Assembly: GCA_019914995.1 (NCBI GenBank)
Contig: CM034128.1
Coordinates: forward strand, 8,620,501-8,684,500
DNA from: Acanthochlamys bracteata
Taxonomy: Eukaryota; Streptophyta; Magnoliopsida; Pandanales; Velloziaceae
DNA: 64,000 bases
Direction of reading: 5' to 3'
Part shown: piece after piece, positions 46,805-64,000 of the stretch
Numbering within the stretch: the stretch's first letter is position 1
How the letters are laid out: each line of letters starts with the position of its first letter
Made by a program: the position numbers and the translations under genes
Notes under the pieces: model-generated
Database searches by the model: none
What the model was told of the DNA's origin: nothing
The model's input: only the letters and a program-made list of their open reading frames with translations

Positions 46805-48189
46805 TTAAGCCAGGATCTCTTCCAGGGACTTTGCTTTAGCAACAGCTTCAACAGCCTTCTGTGCCTCCGGAACAACCTTCTGTTCTGTCTTTGCTAACTT
46901 CTTCAGCTTGGCAAGTTCAAGGTCTCGGCTCATCTTCCTCTTGTACATTTCTGCAAACGTGATCGGCTCGTCAAGCACTGGCTTCTCACCTTCTCTGATG
47001 GCGAGCGGGTAAACAATTGCCTCTGGAGCAGGGTTCTGGAATGTTGCAATGGACAAACGGCTGCTGTTGGAGTTAACCACTGCCTGGTGGTCTGCATTCT
47101 TAAATCTCCCATTGCTCAAGTACTGCAACAAGCAAGCATACGAATGTGATATGAAAGAGACGTATTTGAGCGAGTTCTGCCCATCTCTCTTTTTCTGGGA
47201 CGAACATACATATAGAAGCATGCTGGAAAGAGCTGCTGTAACTTACATGACCATGATCACCGAGATTGACAACGAAAGCACCGTCGACAGGTTGAACGGT
47301 TATCCATGTCTTGCCACCATCCTTTGTTGCCTGAAGTCCTCCAACGAGGTCTTGCAAAAGCAGCGTAATGGTGCCGGGATCAGTGTGGCGCTTGAGACCC
47401 AGAGTGAGATCAGGCTGTGGACACTTGGGGTAAAAGTTTATCACAACCTTCTGGTCCATGTCTACACAAGCCTTGGTAAGTGCCTCACGGTCAAGACCCA
47501 TTGCTTCTGATAAAACTCCGAGGAGTTTGCAAGCAAGATTCATCAAGCTCTCACTGTAGGCCTCGACAACCGGTCGCCAGCCCTCCGGCTTATCCGGCCA
47601 ACGGGAGTAATCACGGGTACGAATTGGGTAAGAGAAGTACGTCACAATCTCTCTCCAGTCCTTCACTACCTCTCCCTGCGAACAACAAACACATTTTCTT
47701 GAATCTTGAATTCACATGAACAACTAACCATAGAGAGGAAAAAAAAAAAAAAAAGAACAAATCACCGTATGTCGAGAACGAAATTTTTTTTAAAAATGAT
47801 TGCTCGATACCTACCTGAAGATGGCTAGAAACAATAAAACCACCCTTCTTCCCACCAGACATATCAAACCTAAGCTTTTCTTGGGCTGGCATAGCAAAGA
47901 ACTCCTTCGAAAACTTCACCATCTCCTTCACAAGATCTGAATCAACTCCATGATTAACAACCTGAAAAATCCCCCAATCTTCACAAGCTTCGACAATGCG
48001 TCGGCAAATCTCAGTCCTTCGTCCTCCTTCTCCTTCTTCGTCGATTCCTGAAAGCGATATCACCGGGATCTCATCGCTGAACTGATCGTACGCAACTTTA
48101 GGCCGTTCATCTTCGTCCCGTACGAAATTCTCACGAAGCTTATCCTCCTCACATTCCGTCGGCAAGAACGGTTTCGCTGCCGGCGCCAT
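46805..48189 (-). CDS. F3H: Flavanone 3-hydroxylase (naringenin 3-dioxygenase), 3 exons
   Basis: This 2-oxoglutarate/Fe(II)-dependent dioxygenase converts naringenin to dihydrokaempferol, the branch point to flavonols, anthocyanins and proanthocyanidins in the cytosol. Exons are complement(46805-47122, 47247-47675, 47815-48189), all GT-AG: 1122 bp, 373 residues, slightly longer than most family members. Diagnostic stretches are [53 protein letters not shown] and [20 protein letters not shown]. The iron ligands are H222, D224 and H280, and the 2-oxoglutarate pair R290-x-S292 lies in SSRLSIATF. The ATG at 48189 gives the usual MAPA start; an upstream in-frame ATG would add 11 residues (48222). 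The upstream region holds MYB and G-box sites. A receptor kinase gene is divergent to it. Confidence 0.96.
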
Positions 48190-48457
48190 TTGTGTTTGAA
48201 TATCTCTCTGTTTGTTTCCCAACTAAAATTTTAATGAGAAAATTTTCAATTTTTGAGAAAAGTTGAAAGATTGGTTGATATTTATTTTAGAAAAAGCAGT
48301 GTGTTTAATAGAGACGAATGAAGGAGAAGGGAGGATGGAGAGGAGCACGCTTCCAACTACCAATGGCGGGAACTAACGCCGAACACCAAACGCTTGCTGA
48401 TATTTTCATCCAATAGAAATTGAAAAATCGTTTAATACCGTTCTCTTATTTTTGGTG

Positions 48458-49260: not shown

Positions 49261-49466
49261 CCTTTGAGTGGACGCGCTGGCGGCGATGCAGTTAGGACTC
49301 GAGAATTTACTTTTATTAGTCTTCAGAGAATTTCAAGCCTTACTTTTGTCTCTCTCTTTTTATTTTGTTTCCTTTTGGATAATTTGATTTTTAACCACAC
49401 CACCTCCACGCATCCAACAACAGTTATATAGCAGGTTATGTCGTGAACCATCATCAATACAGCAAA

Positions 49467-52035
49467 ATGTTAGCAAAAACCAGCTGCATGCTCCTATTCA
49501 TAACTCTGATCTGCCTTTGTACCTATTTTCACACTGCAGCTTCATCTGGGTCTGTAGATACTTTAAGATATAGCCAGTCTCTCTCCGGCAACAAGACTCT
49601 GATCTCCGGCAACGGAACGTTTGTCTTTGGTTTCTTCCAACCAGGTAACTCGTCCGAATACTACCTTGGTATCTGGTTCAACAATCTCCCTAAAAACCAG
49701 TTCACAGTAGTCTGGATCGCCAACAGAGAAAAACCACTTTCGGATCCAGAAACATTCGAGTTCAAAATCTCCAATGACGGCAATCTAGCTCTTCTTGCTT
49801 CTGAGTCCAAAACCTTGATATGGTCCAGCAACGTAAGCTCAATATCCAGACCCAATGCTACTGCTGTAGTACTGAGAGAGAATGGAAATCTTATTCTGAT
49901 CAATGACGATGGTAGTGTTATATGGCAAAGCTTCGACCACCCGACGCATGCTGTGCTGCCCGGATCAAAGTTCGGGATGAACAAACTGACCAAGCAAGTC
50001 CAACAGCTGACTTCATGGAAGACCAGCGACGATCCATCACCCGGGCCGTTCTCTTTATCAATCGACCACAACGGAACGAGCCAATTCATTGTGCAGTGGC
50101 AATTGTCGAAAGCCTACTGGAATACGGGGTTGTGGACAGGCCATTCATTCAGCAGCATCCCGGAAATGATGCCTGGGGGACTACCTGCTTATCCTGGCAT
50201 GAAGTTTGCATATGTTGACAATGCGAACGAGAGCTACTTCACTTACTCAACTGGCGGCATAAATCTTATGCTCGAAACTCTGTTGCAAAGTTCTGGCGAT
50301 TTTCTGGAGCTGATGTTGGTGCCCAATAGCGGAAGCAACTGGATTCCATTCTACAAAGCACCAAAATTCCAGTGCTACGTTTATGGCCGCTGTGGGCCAT
50401 TTGGAATCTGTAATGAGGGAGCCTCACCACCATGCAGTTGCATAAGGTACGAGAGACATTAACTTTTGCCCAGCAAAGGAAGTTAAAGGAAAATCCCTTT
50501 TTGTATCAATGAAAATAAAACCACATATAGGCAGGAGTTGTTGAACTTATATATATATAAAATAATTCTGATATTTGATTGTAATACCGGCCAGGAGTTT
50601 TAGCCCAGCCTCACCAAAGTACTGGACGCTCGGTGACCAGAGCTTCGGTTGCAAGAGGAACAGTGCCTTGCAATGTGACCCCAACACGACGGCCTTTACT
50701 GACAAGTTCTATGAGATGCAAGGTATGAGATTGCCCGATATTAATCGTCATACACTAACGCTGGCCAATGTTAACGAATGTAAGTCAGCTTGTCTGAACA
50801 ATTGCTCTTGTAATGCTTATTCATACACAACTGGTTGCTTGCTGTGGTACGGAGATCTGTATAATCTCCAACAATTTAATGATGGAACTGGTAGCACCAT
50901 CTATATCAGAGTATCAGCTTATGACTTGCCAAGTTACTCTGAGCATAAAAAAGCAAAGGCCACTAGACTAGTTATTGTTGTGATATCGGCTGCTCTGTTA
51001 ATTTTCTTAACTATTGTTTGCATTCGGATCATTCGGAGACGAGAAATTCGTAGAGGCTTGATATCTAAATCTAAGGTGGAGAACTTGGTATTGTATAGCT
51101 ATACAGAGCTGAAACAAGTTACTAAGAACTTCTCTGAGAAGCTTGGGAAAGGAGGGTTTGGCTCAGTGTTCAAAGGGGAGTTGATGTTGCAAGGTTCAGC
51201 ACCAATATCCATTGCGGTGAAGAAGCTTGAAGGTGTCCATCAAGGTGACAAGCAGTTCCGAGCAGAGGTTAGCACGATTGGCACAATTCAACATGTCAAC
51301 CTGGTCCGCCTTCGCGGTTTCTGCTCTGAAGGACACAGAAGGTTGCTAGTGTATGAATATGTTTCTAATGGCTCTCTTGATCACCAGTTGTTCAATAACA
51401 AAAACGCAGTGATGGATTGGAACACCAGGTATAAGATTGCTCTAGGAACTGCGAGAGGATTGGCTTATCTTCATGAAGAATGCAGGGATAGAATCATACA
51501 CTGCGACATCAAGCCTGAAAACATCTTATTGGATTCTTCATTCAATCCAAAGGTTGCGGATTTCGGGCTAGCCAAGCTCATAGGTCGTGACTTCAGCAGG
51601 GTCTTGACCACACTGCGTGGCACCATCGGTTACCTCGCACCAGAATGGATCTCAGGCATGGCAATCACTGCGAAAGCAGATGTGTACAGCTACGGGCTTA
51701 CGCTCTTTGAGATCATATCAGGGAAAAGAAACTCCAAATGTGAGGCTAACAACAGTTCATTTTACTATCCTTTGTATGCAGCGCGTAAATTGTCGGTAGG
51801 AGATGTTCTTCCAGTGCTGGACAAGAGACTGGAGGGTGAAGCAGATATGGAGGAAGTTGCAAGAGCTTGTTTGGTGGCATGCTGGTGCATTCAAGATAAC
51901 GAGAGTGATCGGCCAACAATGGGACAAGTTGTTCAGATATTGGAGAAGGTTTTAGATGTTGAAATGCCTCCAATTCCAAGAACCCTTCAACTCATGATCA
52001 GTGCAGAAAGCAAAAGTGATGATGCATCGTGGTGA
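49467..52035 (+). CDS. G-type lectin S-receptor-like serine/threonine kinase (At2g19130-like)
   Basis: Exons are 49467-50446 and 50595-52035, with a 148-bp GT-AG intron: 2421 bp, 806 residues. In order: a signal peptide (about 1-29, hydrophobic LLFITLICLC), a bulb-type lectin domain (about 30-150), an S-locus glycoprotein domain with the Cys-rich CYVYGRCGPFGIC segment (about 300-330), a PAN/apple domain (about 354-432, CKSACLNNCSCNAYS), a transmembrane helix (about 451-470) and a kinase domain. Kinase landmarks are the GKGGFGSV loop (511 onward), the VAIK-type lysine K536 in IAVKK, HCDIKPEN with D631, DFG at 649-651 and APEW. HCD instead of HRD makes it a non-RD kinase, a class often tied to immune signalling. 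The ATG is the first after an upstream stop. The intron is unusual, as close relatives are mostly intronless. Ligand and role are unknown. Confidence 0.92.
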
Positions 52036-53045: not shown

Positions 53046-55582
53046 TCATGACTCAGGAGCAGGAGAGAAGTCCTTAAGTTTGGGAACCTTAAAATTAGCA
53101 GAGAACAACCTGGGCCCCCTTGTCGACGGGGAGCTCCTATTACCTTCGGAGCTAGAACATCTCTTTAATCTCTGAAAAAGCAGTGAAAACCATACATTAG
53201 AAACAAATTCACAATACAAAAAAGCACTCATTCCAAACGCCCCACCAACCAACTATGATGCATGCATTTTCTTCACAGAGGTGTTTTCAATCTTGAAAGA
53301 CCTCATCCACATACCAAACTACTTAAATATGAAAATTGATGCTAGATTAGGATAATAGCAGTTTCTAAAAGCACATACCAAAAGCAACTATATATAGCTA
53401 GCTGAAAGAATACAAATAAAAACAGATGACAAGACAAAACGGCCCCCTCTAGTAGCCTAATTAAACAGATCAACCATTGTTTAATAGGTAAAGATACAGA
53501 GCAATTGAACCAGTAAAATATACAGTTACAGAAGCAGTACAAAAGTCTACTACCAAGCAAACAACAACCTAGAACAGATGAGAATGATGAAATAGATGCA
53601 GTATGGTGCATTAATCCGAAATTGTACAACTCCATATTATGAAAGATATAAACGAAAGATAATAGTGAAGCTTCTTTAAGATTTACATAGAAGGAGAAAA
53701 TGGTCTACAACTTCGATAACTATCAACCTCCTTAAATGCATAACAAATTACACATGATATGCTTACTAAAAGAAATTGATTTTAATTATTAGCAATGATA
53801 TGAAAAGACAAAAACAAGCACTTAGCAAACAACAAGAACCTTTTAGTTTATAAAAACATGGAACTTACACTGCTCATAGCCTGTGAATCTGAGGCATCTT
53901 CATTGAGGCGCTTTTTTGAACTATCACCTTCTGATTTATTACCTTTCGCTTTTTCGAACTATCACCCTCTTTCGCTTTTCGAACTATCACCTTCTGATTT
54001 ATGCCTTCCAGATAACCTAATCATATGGCTCTTGGCAGGAGTAGCTGAAGCACTTCTCGAATTCCTTCTTGAAAGTGAAATGCCTGCAACATTAGAAGGT
54101 CCAGCAGCTGATTTCTTTGAATCCACCTCAAGCTTAGCTAGGTCATTCTCAATCTTGCAATCACAAGATCCTTCTCCTTGCATGACAACTCCAACTCCTC
54201 CACATTATGCTGGAGCTCATCTATCTTTCCTTTAGCCTTCTCCACTTCCTTTTTGCCTCTCCTCCTATCAAACTCAAGGGTAGACCTCTCATCTTTTAGT
54301 TTGGCAATTGCTTTATAGCTAGATCGGTTTGGAGTTTCTCAATGCTTTCATTAGCTTGATCAACTTCTACTCTCTTGCTCTTAATGATAGCAGTGTAGTC
54401 ACTCTCCATTTTCTTAAACAGATTCCACACGAAATCCTTCTCTGACACTAATGCAGAAACCTCCACTTCCTTCTTTTGAACTGAGCTTTTTGTACACATG
54501 TTTTAATTTTCTTATCTCCGCCTCAAGGGCTTTAACGGACTGATGTTCTTCCTTTGAATTTACTTCAGAATTTTTATTACAAGCTTTTTGCTTTCCTTTA
54601 TCAGATGATGTGCTTTTCTCCTGAGTTAACTTCCCCTAAATTTTAAACACGATATAAACAAAGAAACATTCATTAAGAACAAGCAGAGGCAGTTTAAGTA
54701 ACAATATCTCAAAGACAAAAGCTCACAACATCCTGTCTAGCAGAATAATACCTTTAGCTACAAAATTTGGCCATTCAATGTCTCAACAAACTCATTAAAT
54801 TCTGCCCAATCACACTCTGCCAGTTCTGTCATCAGATTCCAATTCACATTTAAGTAAAAGAAACAATGAGATGGCTCAATATAAGCTAAGCAAAAATATT
54901 TTAGGAAAATGAAGAAAATGGAAACATCAACAACATATTCAAGAAATATGTCCTGGCACAATCCAAAACATCTACAGTCATTCCATATTTCATAGTCCAT
55001 TTCAGAAATTTCAAATAAAATGAGAAAATTCCCAAATCTAAGCAACTAACAGTTGCACAAGCTCGTAAAAGGTAATTAAATTTGAGCACAGGAAAAAGTC
55101 GTTTCCCAAAAACAAACCAGGAAAAGTAAAAAGAAAGAATTCATTAAAAAAAACAACTAACATTTCCAGAAACGAACCGTACTGCTTCTTGTAGCAAGCT
55201 AGCTGGCGCTCTTTCAACCCTACAGCAATGTCCAACGCCACCGCCTGGAGTCTCCGCCACTTCTCCTCCTCTTTTTTCATCTACTCAAAAATGCCGAAAC
55301 CCAAATTTAAAATTTTCCGCAATTGAAACCATAAGAAAACAAAATTAGGTTTAGCCAATCCTAGAAGAATCCAACCTGTTGAATTTGGGATCTTAATCGT
55401 AGCGTTCGATCAGCCCAACAACGGTGCTGAAGATTAGCGTAGTCTTCAAAAAACCGTCGTTCAGTTACGAGTGATTCGATTTGGGATTTCTGTTCCTGTA
55501 CAATTCCCACCATGGCCCTAAAGATTTGCTTCCACTTCTGCTGGTCCCTCACCTCAGCTGCCGCCGGTGAGCCACCTTCCAT
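53046..55582 (-). pseudogene. Broken multi-exon gene for a plant coiled-coil protein of unknown function
   Basis: Exon-like blocks on the minus strand are 55376-55582 (from an ATG giving MEGGSPAAAEVRDQQKWKQ), about 55160-55280 (MKKEEEKWRRLQAVALDI), 54752-54825 (ELAECDWAEFNEFVETL), 53869-54635 (a long Lys/Glu-rich coiled coil, then a Ser-rich basic part) and 53046-53171 (LKRCSSSEGNRSSPSTRG, ending SPAPES). Most junctions look like GT-AG; the 3' end of block 2 is uncertain. The reading frame is not intact: block 3 has an in-frame TAG just before its donor, and the coiled-coil similarity in block 4 changes frame at least three times. A 20-bp segment (around AAATCAGAAGGTGATAG) is duplicated near 53932-54000. 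Upstream, a CT-rich leader and a probable promoter remain. I do not recognise the family. Decay is the best reading, but unusual splicing or assembly errors are possible. Confidence 0.6.
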
Positions 55583-55671
55583 TGGTCGATTGATCTTTCG
55601 ATTGCTTCTCAACAACGCTATGGAGTTCAAGAAACGAGCGCGCGAGCAATCGAAAGAAATTGAGAGAAATT

Positions 55672-58859: not shown

Positions 58860-60960
58860 CAGATATATTGACCCGCGAGTCAACTCAATTGATCCAGCGG
58901 GTTGACCTATCGATGACCAGACACTATGTTGACGGTCGATTCGGTTCTCCCAATTATGATTAATACATAAAATCATCATTCTTAAAAACTAAAATGGCGT
59001 TTGGTAATTAGTGGATGTTTAAATATTTAATCTATTAAACTAATTAAATCTTAACGCGTATGTCACATTCAATATCTGAATTATTAACTATACTGATAAT
59101 TATGCTTTCTCTTTCTTTCCATATTTTTTTCTAAATTTACAATCAACATATGTTTGACGCTAATAAGGTCTCATAATTACTATAAGAAATATCTTCAAGA
59201 GAAAACGAAGCATACTCATTGCCCATATAAAAACTACTACTTAATTAAAGCTTTTCCAAAAGATCAAATTATCATTTCATCCCGTTTCTATAGCTTTCAT
59301 TCTGAAAATTAAGTAAATCAAAGTATAAATAAATTTCAATAACTGTTTTAACTAATTAAAACAGTTTAAAAATGATTTCTTATTTTTCAGCTGTTCTGGT
59401 AGGTCACAAAATTTAGAAACAGGAAGCAAGCATTGCTAGATTGCGTTTTGCCAAATATAGTTTTGTCTAGCTCAAGGATTGTATTCCAAATTAGTAATGT
59501 TTCAATTAATTGAAATAGAACAGGACTGATCAATTTCTTCTGCTGTGCTATATGATGAAAATTTAAAAAAATTAGTATAGGATGAGGATAACGACACATC
59601 CGTAAACCAAATGTTCTAACTATTTGATCAAAATATCTGACGATTATTAAGTATATTTTGACTAGGATTGCAAAAAGCCTATATACGGCGCCTAGTGATA
59701 TCCCCAAAATTGCATTTCAACAATCTTCATTTCTTTGCAATAGATAGAACTACATGCATATGACTAACAATTCTTCAGAAAACACAACAAAACTAAGAGA
59801 AGATCAGAATTTCTATGGTACGATGATTCAAGCTATGCATACAAGATACAAAATTCTTTTAACAATTAAAATATTTGCATTACTCTTTGAGCGTCGTTTG
59901 ACATTTCTATTGAGTGATTTTCGTTCCTCTATTTTATTTTATATTTTTAAATAAATTTTATATACAATTTTATAAAAATTTATTTAAAATTTTTAAAAAT
60001 ATTAAAAATTCTATGTTCTAAAATTTTATTTTATTTTAGATAAAAATATATATTTTATTTTTTAAAATATAATAAAACTATCTTCTATTAGAATAGCTCA
60101 ATTTCATAAACACTCTTAAATATCTTCATCTAAACAGAAAATCAGGACTTTCATGATTTAACAAGAAACACTTCATTGTAGAAGGCTTGTAACATAGATC
60201 TTAACAAATAAGGCTTAAGCTTTAGTTTTGGCTAATACCAAAAAGCCTAACCTTGAACACCAAAAATATATATAATCCACAACAACACATACAAGAAATA
60301 ATTGCTCGTTTGCTACTACACTTAATCAGCTGTGAATCGGCTATATCTAGACTGTCACTAAATAACAAGGTAAATTACAGAATACGTCTACCAAATAACT
60401 GATGTATAACATATCTAGATCGTCTTTAAGCTATGATCAAGAACTTCAAGGCCATGATCAGTACTACGTATATACTGAAACATATATCTGTCAATCTGTC
60501 ATGGTATAGAAAGAAAATGCAGAAGAGATTATTATAAGGGTTTGTCAGGCCAAGGGAAAACTTCATCGAATTTTCCCTTCTATCATAAAACTACTCTAAT
60601 AAATGAAAAATTCTAACAACAGCGCAGAGAGTCCAAATTAACCGCACATCAGCATGCTCTGGAGGCGGTGAGAAGCAGAACTCAAAATCATGCACAAAAA
60701 ATTAATTTAGAGTCATGAAATATAATAGAGAGGGGTTGTTGTTTGTAGCAATTTGAACCTGTGAAGAAATGATCACATCAGCTGCCATCGATTCCTTGGC
60801 TTCCTTCAAGTCAGCACACCAAACTTCCAGAGAACAAATTACAAAAACGAAAACCCATAAGCATATTATCAAGCAAGTTCAATGATCTTGATTGAATCCT
60901 AAAAGGAAATGAAAAGAAACAGATAGAAAGGTGATCTTCGAGTAAATGGAGATTATTGAA
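58860..60960. other. Intergenic, with a MITE remnant; 3' side of the MIR156-like locus
   Basis: A Tourist-like remnant lies at about 59888-60117 (starts GAGCGTCGTTTGACATT, ends CATAAACACTC). No coding signal. From about 60.2 kb the sequence is less A/T-rich and may belong to the primary transcript of the hairpin. Confidence 0.4.
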
Positions 60961-61053
60961 CGTGCTTGATAGAGAGTGAGCACAAATAGCTTCCGGCATC
61001 TTAACCTTTGATGCCAGAAAACAAACCATCTGTGCTCACTCTCTTCTGCCACC
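60961..61053 (-). ncRNA. MIR156: MIR156-type microRNA precursor hairpin
   Basis: On the minus strand the 5' arm carries TGGCAGAAGAGAGTGAGCAC (61051-61032), which differs from the conserved miR156 sequence only at position 3 (G for A). The 3' arm carries GTGCTCACTCTCTATC (60983 down to 60968), the typical miR156 star region. Thirteen consecutive base pairs (AGAGAGTGAGCAC with GTGCTCACTCTCT) form the duplex core. The loop side has a second strong stem, CTGGCATC with GATGCCGG, closing a nine-base loop. This layout matches known MIR156 precursors. At the base of the duplex the star side reads AAG where TGT would pair, giving a three-base internal loop at mature positions 3-5. miR156 represses SPL transcription factors and controls the juvenile-to-adult change. 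Whether this copy is functional is open. Confidence 0.8.
61032..61051 (-). ncRNA. Predicted mature miR156-like sequence (5' arm)
   Basis: 20 nt on the minus strand, identical to canonical miR156 at 19 positions; the change is at position 3, inside the seed region used for SPL target pairing. Confidence 0.7.
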
Positions 61054-61059
61054 CATCTC

Positions 61060-64000
61060 CCCCTCAATAAAAAACCCAATTGCAAACAGCAATAATTAAT
61101 CATAAATTAAACATTCCGCAATAAGGAAAAAGAAATCACATAAAATTAACGCTTTGAGAAACATTCAAAAACCTTCCCGTCGGTTACTTTCTCTAGATCA
61201 AATCAAACAAGCATCAACAATAATGTTCTATCATGAGTCTGGTTTTCCTGATGTTTGTTATTTGAAGTACGAAAAAGGCTTTAGAATTTTGCATTGAACA
61301 TAGAGGAGAGATGGATCATGGCCGACTAATAACAAACCCTAAAACTGGCGACGTCGTAGTACAGTGGTCTCCACAAATTAACCCTAGTTTCAATTTTCAA
61401 GTTCATCTGATCCATTTAATCCCATCTCCATCTCTTACCGCATACCAACGCACCTTGTAATTTTAAATCTTTATTCATCTGCCCTGGCTATCTTGGTGCT
61501 TGCAGAGACACACAACCATAAATACCATATTTATCAGATTCAGATTCCATTTATTTTTCATAAACCCATTCAATCAATGAAGAGACAGTGAAAGATTAGC
61601 ATTACTTCTTTCTTGTATCTTCATGAAGAAAAGGAAGTATTAGAAATTAGCATCAAATACAAAAAAAAAAGCTAGCGCTGGTTGTAAAGCATAGAAATGA
61701 TTCTGGGAAGCTTTTGGATTGTTTTTCTTTTTCATGAGAGTAGCAAAAAGGCAATTGGGCAAATTTCTTTCGGTATAGTTTAATATTAGTAGTGGAGAAT
61801 TTTAAACAAGCTTTACTAACAAGTTGTATTCTCGATACCGACTAAAAATTTTAAAATTACTTGTGTTTGTCAGAAGTCTGAAGATATATTTTTGACCAGC
61901 CGCTAGCTAGGTAGAGTCCATTGTGATGCAAAGCATCTCTGCGCGCATCTGCATGGTCCTGTATTTGCGTCCATGTACTTGCAAGTGATTGGGGCATGCT
62001 CTTCTTTGTATGTCTAACAGTACCTGCAATTTTCAATAGGAAAATACCAGTATTAATTGAGCCTATTGGTTTTGACAATGCTGATCATATACCGATAGCT
62101 ACTAATTACAAACTCAACTAGTAAATTTATACAATTAATATCTTCTCCAAAGGTCTATAAACACTAGCAACCATGTTATTTGTAGAATTTAGCCTTTGCC
62201 ATTTGAGGAAGACGACAACAGCAGCACTAGCTGACTAACAACAACAATAATTAATAATAAAGCGCATTAGGAAAAGTTAAATGATGCTTACACGCTGATA
62301 GATAGATCTGTAGGGAGTATTTGACATGAATGTCCTTGTCAAGACAGTACTAGATTGAGTTCATCCAACTTAAGAAAGGTACTTAGGTAAACTAGCTGGA
62401 ACGCACTTCTTCACCCATGGATCAACTTGATAGAGTTTTGCCTTGAAAAAAATGGCTATTGCAGGTTTCAACAAACTAGAGTTGGTATCTTGTAAAATCT
62501 TATAAAAGCCCACACAATTAAAAAAACAGCGAGATGAGAACAAATTATGAAATTCTCCTTCTGTTAGATCTTTATCCCTGCGAACTAATCCTTCAATTTC
62601 CAAGGGATGAGAATGAGAAGAAAAAAACCCTAACCCTATGGAATCCCAGGCTATTGGAGCTTAGGTAGGGTTTCATATGCTACAGTACCATGCAATTGCA
62701 AAAGAGATGATAAACTAAATTAATCCCATGTCAAGCCAGCAAAGGAATCAAAACCAAAGCTGCTGCTGCAAAAGTGCCCTCACCCACTCTTGAAAAGGAA
62801 TGTGTACTTCACCTTTCCACCATTCAGCTCCTACCTCTTTTGACTTATCTCTTCTATCCTGCTTGCTACCTTCTGGAAATTAAACTAACATCAACGCTCG
62901 TGCATGAGTTGCAGCGCTCACAGACGCCACAAACACATGCATGTACATTAATCGTTGATGTACATATATTCAAGTATGGGATCGGTATGGGTGTAGGAAG
63001 AACAAGGGTCTAGATCTATGTATGTATTTATTCTGGCATAAATTAATGTATACAATATGCCTAACTAATTACATGTAAGCTGCTGTTACATCAGTACATG
63101 ATCACCTTGGAAAAGTTAGGAGTTGAAGAAATACCAAAAGAAGTATTCTTGAGAAAGGTTATTATGGGTGCTAGCTAGCTAAATAGCTATTCATCCCAAA
63201 GCATCAATTCAAAAGTAGACAATTTAATTATTAATTCCTTAGGAAGTATAACACTTGATTTCACACTTCAAATCTGCAACCATAATTAATGCTGACCTTC
63301 GTAACTCCACCAATATCTATCAGTAGCACTTCCCTTCTACCTAAAAGAAAGGAGAAGTAAATCTACAGGAAAGAGCTCAGTAAATCTTATTCTACAATAG
63401 ATATAAATTTCTACCGGCTATATATGCGCGAGCTATGTATGTTTTTTATTCGGCTAATATTCTTTGAGTTAGATATCAAACTCAGAACAGGATTGCATAA
63501 GTCTTTGTAGCAAGCTAGCACATGCTACTTCAATCTTGTTATTACTTAATTCCACGGCGCCACTACCAGATATCAGCCGCGACAGGTTGATCGATCAATT
63601 ACAGAAAGTTAATAAACAGAGATTATGTATAGTAACTAATTAATAAAGTAAATTCCACATACCTTGAAAGCCTTCTGGAAAGATTCAAGATGCATTGGAA
63701 AGAAGCAATAGCGTTGTTGACTTCAGTATACATGTCTGTCATGCTTGATCATTTTCTAGTTAATTTAATGCATGCAAGATAAGGAAAGGAAAAGAAAGCT
63801 CACATAAGGATTTAACGACCACCAATATTGTTTAGAATAACGAGGCGTATTTGTCTGGTAGGTGTCGTTTGATAGATGATGATGATGATGTGAAGGGAAT
63901 CAAATGGGTGCTGAGCTTGTTTCAGCTTGGTAGCTAGGGTTTCTTTCAATAAATTTTTTATTTCGGAGACATTTATTCCAACCAATTTCAATGCAACAGC
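61060..64000. other. Upstream of the MIR156-like hairpin; no protein gene recognised
   Basis: Telo-box motifs (AAACCCTAA type) occur at about 61334-61342 and 62625-62638, both upstream of the hairpin in its direction of transcription, and could mark a promoter of the primary transcript. Short frames near 61.86, 62.37 and 62.77 kb have no family resemblance. The last kilobase shows nothing recognisable. Confidence 0.4.

Follow-up and report, generated by a model that had tools for sequence, protein, structure and literature searches.

Plant microRNAs are annotated from small-RNA reads of a precise miRNA and its star strand. For miR156, we take the canonical mature sequence to be TGACAGAAGAGAGTGAGCAC, carried on the 5' arm of the precursor. 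In Arabidopsis, pri-miR156a is reported to be processed from the loop to the base and to require its upper stem (PMC4973740). Such precursors are described as carrying 15-17 bp of stem between the duplex and a loop or bulge (PMC8688358), and another survey likewise takes miR156 to be processed loop-to-base (PMC8541648). In maize, the related miR156c and miR156b are reported to lie 198 nt apart and to be transcribed together (PMC2773440), while paralogous soybean regions carrying another family, MIR169, are reported to contain 'MIR169-like' members and to have changed in copy number and orientation (PMC3481472).

The DNA analysed here (the window) is a 64,000-nucleotide stretch of Acanthochlamys bracteata, C3:8620501-8684500, from a genome of 195.5 Mb in 557 contigs. 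On its minus strand, at 60961-61053, it reads AGATGGGTGGCAGAAGAGAGTGAGCACAGATGG...GAAGCTATTTGTGCTCACTCTCTATCAAGCACG and, as had been predicted from the letters, folds into a MIR156-type precursor. Folding of 60955-61060 confirms the described structure, with a minimum free energy (MFE) of -52.4 kcal/mol (z -7.72), and none of 200 dinucleotide-preserving shuffles is equally stable. Mature positions 8-20 form the predicted core of 13 perfect pairs and, as read from the fold, the run continues for about 7 more into the upper stem. Upper stem and terminal loop (60984..61031, minus strand) comprise 17 pairs and a 9-nt loop, compared with 16 pairs and 8 nt in the paralogous copy on contig C5. The mature-like 20-mer, TGGCAGAAGAGAGTGAGCAC at 61051-61032(-), is identical to canonical miR156 at 19 of 20 positions; its single mismatch is the G for A at position 3 (hereafter G3) already noted in the original prediction. 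Mature positions 3-5 lie opposite AAG in an internal loop, and their pairing probabilities are 0.55, 0.58 and 0.0, against 1.0 in the C5 copy, so that the base of the miRNA/miRNA* duplex is not paired as expected of a MIR156 precursor.

Aligned end to end with the Rfam MIR156 model (RF00073), 60962-61052(-) scores 58.5 bits (E 1.1e-11), slightly short of the curated cut-off of 62. A scan of the whole 64-kb window at the gathering score gave no match, and the hairpin surfaces only in an E-value search of 60600-61400. The hairpin is taken as a MIR156 paralogue by descent and not as a verified MIR156 gene; both sequence and local synteny tie it to C5:2725279-2725368, an undoubted MIR156 hairpin at 76.2 bits. 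Three loci with a perfect mature sequence, on C20, C19 and C11, likewise score below the cut-off (57.7, 53.8 and 50.9 bits). The plus strand of 60962-61052 also matches the model, at 33.6 bits, as do the opposite strands of several sister hairpins, since the duplex is nearly symmetrical in sequence.

Comparison with the other MIR156 loci of the genome places the hairpin in one of two paralogous clusters of four. The C3 cluster consists of the window hairpin on the minus strand and three plus-strand hairpins at 8684749, 8684940 and 8685281, just beyond the window end. The C5 cluster has a minus-strand hairpin (mature sequence at 2725348-2725367) and plus-strand hairpins at about 2729640, 2729832 and 2730087. 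The direct counterpart of the window hairpin, C5:2725279-2725368(-), carries the canonical mature sequence. Alignment shows that the 5' flank is conserved (61054..61079, minus strand), followed by an upstream block at 61441..61909(-) (C5:2725776-2726228, 72% over 490 columns), which would be the promoter or leader side of the window hairpin, and by five further separate blocks at 62119..63887, between the window hairpin and C3:8684749 (position 64249 in window numbering, hence outside). The blocks are collinear on the two contigs and run on to C5:2730154. The two clusters probably arose by whole-genome or segmental duplication. TATA-like words upstream were not used, their distances differing between the C3 and C5 copies.

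Positions in the two clusters were matched by collinear alignment and, for the first and second plus-strand hairpins, also by their 3' flank scores. Counting as 'intact' those hairpins whose mature sequence is perfect and whose star is paired, four of the eight qualify, and the same four pass the Rfam cut-off of 62. The minus-strand hairpin is damaged on C3 (58.5 bits) and intact on C5 (76.2). The first plus-strand hairpin is intact on C3 (72.5 bits) and has lost two mature bases on C5 (58.7), while the second is intact on both (73.4 on C3, 77.5 on C5). The third has two mature changes and a poor stem on C3 (43.6 bits; -27.5 kcal/mol for 120 nt); on C5 it has a perfect mature sequence and no recognisable star arm, and is absent among the best Rfam-model candidates scored. 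Thus at two of the four positions a single intact copy remains, each time in a different cluster: the minus-strand hairpin on C5 and the first plus-strand hairpin on C3. Four further loci with a perfect mature miR156 are found on C8, C11, C19 and C20 (the genome search for canonical miR156 allowed up to 3 mismatches, and the Rfam-model genome search scored the best candidates only).

The window hairpin aligns with C5:2725285-2725397 at 88.6% over 114 columns, and the homology then ends within the star arm. The surviving part of this arm, GTGCTCACTCTCTATC (60968..60983, minus strand), is identical to the C5 copy at 16 of 16 bases, and the stop falls between 60967 and 60968. Three of the four C5 hairpins align as far as this same base (C3:8681468, window 60968), and the alignment to the fourth, the one without a star arm, ends 13 bases earlier (window 60981). 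Past the stop the window reads AAGCACGTTCAA where C5 has TGTCACCACCCA, 12 bases whose similarity is no more than chance. The end of the star facing the mature 5' end has accordingly been replaced, AAGCA standing for TGTCA (60963..60967, minus strand). In the downstream flank (60560..60967, minus strand) no homology to the C5 3' flank is seen, and a genome search with it at E <= 0.001 returns itself as the only match. When 1000 nt of flank from the window and C5 copies are aligned locally, the 3' side scores 30, a value matched by 28 of 200 two-base-block shuffles, and the 5' side scores 309, where no shuffle exceeds 36. The internal loop described in the original prediction is real, but the change in the star reaches beyond the opposing bases, since from 60967 on the sequence shows no detectable homology to the C5 counterpart.

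Adjoining this stop is a block whose orientation is reversed between C3 and C5. The cluster block itself has the same orientation on both contigs, and the anchors on both sides are inverted relative to it. An inversion was suggested by a gene for a filament-like plant protein (FPP, PF05911; 16535..18553, minus strand), whose counterpart at C5:2797920-2799935(+) (78%) is inverted while the MIR156 blocks are co-oriented; the position of the left-hand gene and a far-side match for the C5 3' flank were then sought as predictions. To the left of the window hairpin, on the same side as the FPP gene, the gene region 53511..55659(-) (C3:8676159-8674011) matches C5:2732767-2734948 in opposite relative orientation (75.6% over 2271 columns), and the gene at 55361-55582(-) has its sole other match at C5:2732856-2733056(+), to the right of the C5 cluster. 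On the other side, the sequence downstream of the intact C5 hairpin (C5:2724106-2724406) has its C3 match beyond the other end of the cluster, at a distance of 17 kb. This consists of two inverted non-coding stretches, C5:2724106-2724219 with C3:8698889-8698772 (119 columns, 73%) and C5:2724275-2724406 with C3:8698680-8698561 (133 columns, 77%). It is the best of six other genome matches (E 1.4e-15), the rest being short stretches on other contigs. The query was the 1000 bases adjoining the C5 hairpin, since with the full 3.3-kb C5 flank the matches were dominated by a dispersed repeat at its distal end. This repeat, of about 310 bp (C5:2722001-2722307), has at least 39 other copies at 79-82% identity among 40 scored candidates.

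The right-hand breakpoint can only be bracketed, from about C3:8685376 to 8698561. A 52-bp match (C5:2731056-2731107 with C3:8685931-8685981) was too weak for placing it, and the many AT-rich matches of low identity that link C5:2722976-2724130 with C3 in either orientation did not serve as anchors. Near the right-hand junction that an inversion predicts, the lost star end did not turn up: TGTCACC is absent from both strands of C3:8693001-8699500, and when the C5 flank is aligned permissively to C3:8697700-8698570, 6 of 100 shuffles score as well. Two of the four proteins tested have a counterpart near the C5 cluster; none was found there for a dioxygenase at 47.1-48.2 kb of the window or for a gene at C3:8689750, which loss of duplicates would explain.

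The dioxygenase, 2-oxoglutarate-dependent, is read in two pieces (DIOX_N and 2OG-FeII_Oxy; 47100-48222, minus strand), and the best other genome match of its N-terminal piece is 38% identical. Beside it lies a G-type lectin S-receptor-like kinase (B_lectin, S_locus_glycop, PAN and kinase domains; 49443-52035), split across two ORFs (49443-50462 and 50575-52035) by a frame break, an intron or decay to a pseudogene.

Since the C5 hairpin is complete at the junction, the change is assigned to C3. The stop of homology is probably best explained by an inversion breakpoint within or close to the star arm, at or adjoining 60967..60968, although the star end could just as well have been lost through a later deletion or insertion next to the inversion. 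Recombination between the minus-strand and third plus-strand hairpins was rejected as the cause of the inversion, since the third plus-strand hairpin is still on C3 with its star end. No published case of an inversion breakpoint through a microRNA hairpin was found, and a literature search says little on this point.

Taken together, these observations make it fairly probable that the window hairpin is a decaying, possibly still processed MIR156 paralogue whose star end has been lost, probably at an inversion breakpoint or close to one. After the cluster was duplicated, the C3 cluster block would have been flipped by a small inversion, with one breakpoint in or close to the star arm of the window hairpin; the last star bases and the whole basal stem would have gone, leaving unrelated single-copy DNA in their place. 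If the hairpin is transcribed, the kept upper stem would position the first DCL1 cut and some miRNA could still be released. Since the second cut adjoins the internal loop, a lower yield or a ragged 5' end would be expected, and altered processing is possible on the predicted fold. The G3 product would remain able to pair with SPL mRNAs. Since both clusters retain intact miR156 hairpins, the window copy is most likely under relaxed constraint and decaying. Of the two outcomes offered by the original prediction, a decaying paralogue or a variant with altered processing and target range, decay is the one favoured by the paralogous cluster, the intact C5 copy and the missing star end, while the altered target range finds no support.

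A doubtful alternative, though one with a real chance of being correct, is that the locus is a still-working MIR156 gene with a shortened stem, in which loss of the base is tolerated and a G3 miR156 silences SPL genes redundantly. The upper stem of 17 pairs below a 9-nt loop fits the range of about 15-17 bp above the duplex reported for loop-to-base precursors (PMC8688358), and the reported dependence of pri-miR156a on its upper stem (PMC4973740) is in keeping with this. The degree of conservation points the same way. Apart from the loop, of 6 and 5 bases, and the replaced end of the star, the window and C5 copies disagree at just 4 of 78 positions: 1 of 20 in the mature arm, 1 of 24 plus 2 of 18 in the upper stem, and none of 16 in the star. 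At 25% divergence, which approximates that of the alignable flank blocks (70-81% identity), so few differences have a P of about 4e-6 if sites are independent. The hairpin was then constrained for long or until recently, through much of the period after the duplication, which counts against decay; it points to a fairly recent break or to residual function and keeps the working gene in play. Its product is also not without parallel: the 22-nt small RNA pmi-miR156n/o of Persicaria minor opens with the same 20 bases as TGGCAGAAGAGAGTGAGCAC and has SPL16 as a predicted target, with a score of 1.5 (PMC6636069), and no further published occurrence of TGGCAGAAGAGAGTGAGCAC was found in the literature searched.

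Against a working gene stand the position of the second cut, beside the poorly paired positions 3-5, and the pairing of the new flanks. With flanks of 12, 20 and 30 nt, 330, 337 and 143 of 500 shuffled flanks pair as well as the real ones, as do 275, 140 and 92 of 500 random flanks from the window. The new flanks thus pair no better than shuffled or random ones and give no sign of a rebuilt basal stem, and the short stem GGAGAU/AUCUCC was rejected as a mark of selection, shuffled or background flanks doing as well. That a G3 miR156 is still made in spite of a basal stem amputated by the inversion, loop-to-base processing needing only the upper stem, is a more specific suggestion which we consider improbable.

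It is also unlikely that the star end and flank simply drifted apart by point mutations and small indels, without a breakpoint at this site and with the nearby inversion a coincidence. Some bases do match when the flank is aligned globally, and the other inversion junction was not located in C3:8693001-8699500. Drift does not sit well, however, with 16 identical star bases out of 16 followed at once by 12 bases at chance, nor with a stop at a single position beside a block of opposite orientation on C3 and C5, which is unlike simple drift of the star bases. Anchored extension over 60 bases past the star end, started after the shared TGTCA and compared with 100 shuffles, was applied to six of the seven other cluster hairpins, the third plus-strand hairpin of C5 being left out as it has no recognisable star end. 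The counterpart pairs of the first and second plus-strand hairpins keep clear flank homology (scores 24 and 20, reached by 0 of 100 shuffles each), against a score of 2 for the window hairpin and its C5 counterpart, reached by 56 of 100.

Judging from these alignments, flank homology is generally weak across the MIR156 family, with 8 of the 15 pairs among the six other hairpins at or below 5 of 100 shuffles, and the firm contrast is that between counterpart pairs. For the window flank, the values are 3, 8 and 54 of 100 shuffles against the first, second and third plus-strand hairpins of C3, and 11 and 19 against the first and second of C5. The match slightly above chance to the first C3 hairpin (3 of 100) counts against a clean break and in favour of drift, yet in six tests it is about what chance would give. 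A chimaera with the 3' flank of another member is not claimed, the best candidates of the six being the first (3 of 100) and second (8 of 100) on C3. When the flanks include the shared TGTCA, the window flank is reached by 77, 17, 9, 109, 59 and 45 of 150 shuffles in the six comparisons, and 14 of the 15 pairs among the other hairpins lie at or below 3 of 60 shuffles, a control that is inflated because those flanks were cut at the shared TGTCA.

The suggestion that G3 gives an altered target range, with new targets carrying C opposite position 3, is very improbable, since all 13 SPL-type sites found in the genome (11 of one form, 2 of another) carry U at that place and still form a wobble pair with G3. 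Such pairing, the subject of the test proposed with the original prediction, costs 0.6 kcal/mol, or 0.5 in a plain mismatch score: the duplex energies are -32.4 for G3 against -33.0 kcal/mol for the canonical form at the 11-site form, and -29.6 against -30.2 at the 2-site form. By computed pairing, then, the G3 form would still recognise SPL mRNAs. Twelve of the 13 sites lie less than 2 kb from an SBP exon on the matching strand, as judged from the best 40 candidates of the SBP search. The site at C20:3024424-3024443 sits in an SPL-like frame (ALSLLS) with no SBP exon near it among those 40 candidates, and may belong to a partial SPL copy.

The window hairpin is a real object of an ordinary kind, with an instructive detail. 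If the favoured reading is right, rearrangement through a hairpin would be a concrete route by which an ancient and almost unchanging miRNA family loses one of its members, and the duplicated clusters would share the remaining work. If instead the miRNA is still made, the locus would amount to a natural removal of the lower stem, and thus a natural test of whether this part is dispensable in a loop-to-base precursor, in a miRNA cluster that survived a rearrangement through one of its own hairpins.

Compared with RF00073 and Arabidopsis MIR156A, the hairpin likewise carries its mature sequence on the 5' arm and shares the star core, the upper stem and the terminal loop. Its mature sequence is one base from canonical, and it shares local synteny with an intact copy; unlike the family at large, it carries G3, has its last star bases and basal stem replaced, and scores just below the Rfam cut-off. 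With several MIR156 hairpins packed into a few hundred bases of the same strand, the arrangement resembles that reported for maize miR156c and miR156b (PMC2773440), but here an extra hairpin on the opposite strand points away from the others, and the whole cluster is present twice. The uneven decay and the orientation differences between duplicated clusters recall the soybean MIR169 regions (PMC3481472), which concern another family and for which the part of that report consulted mentions no breakpoint within a hairpin.
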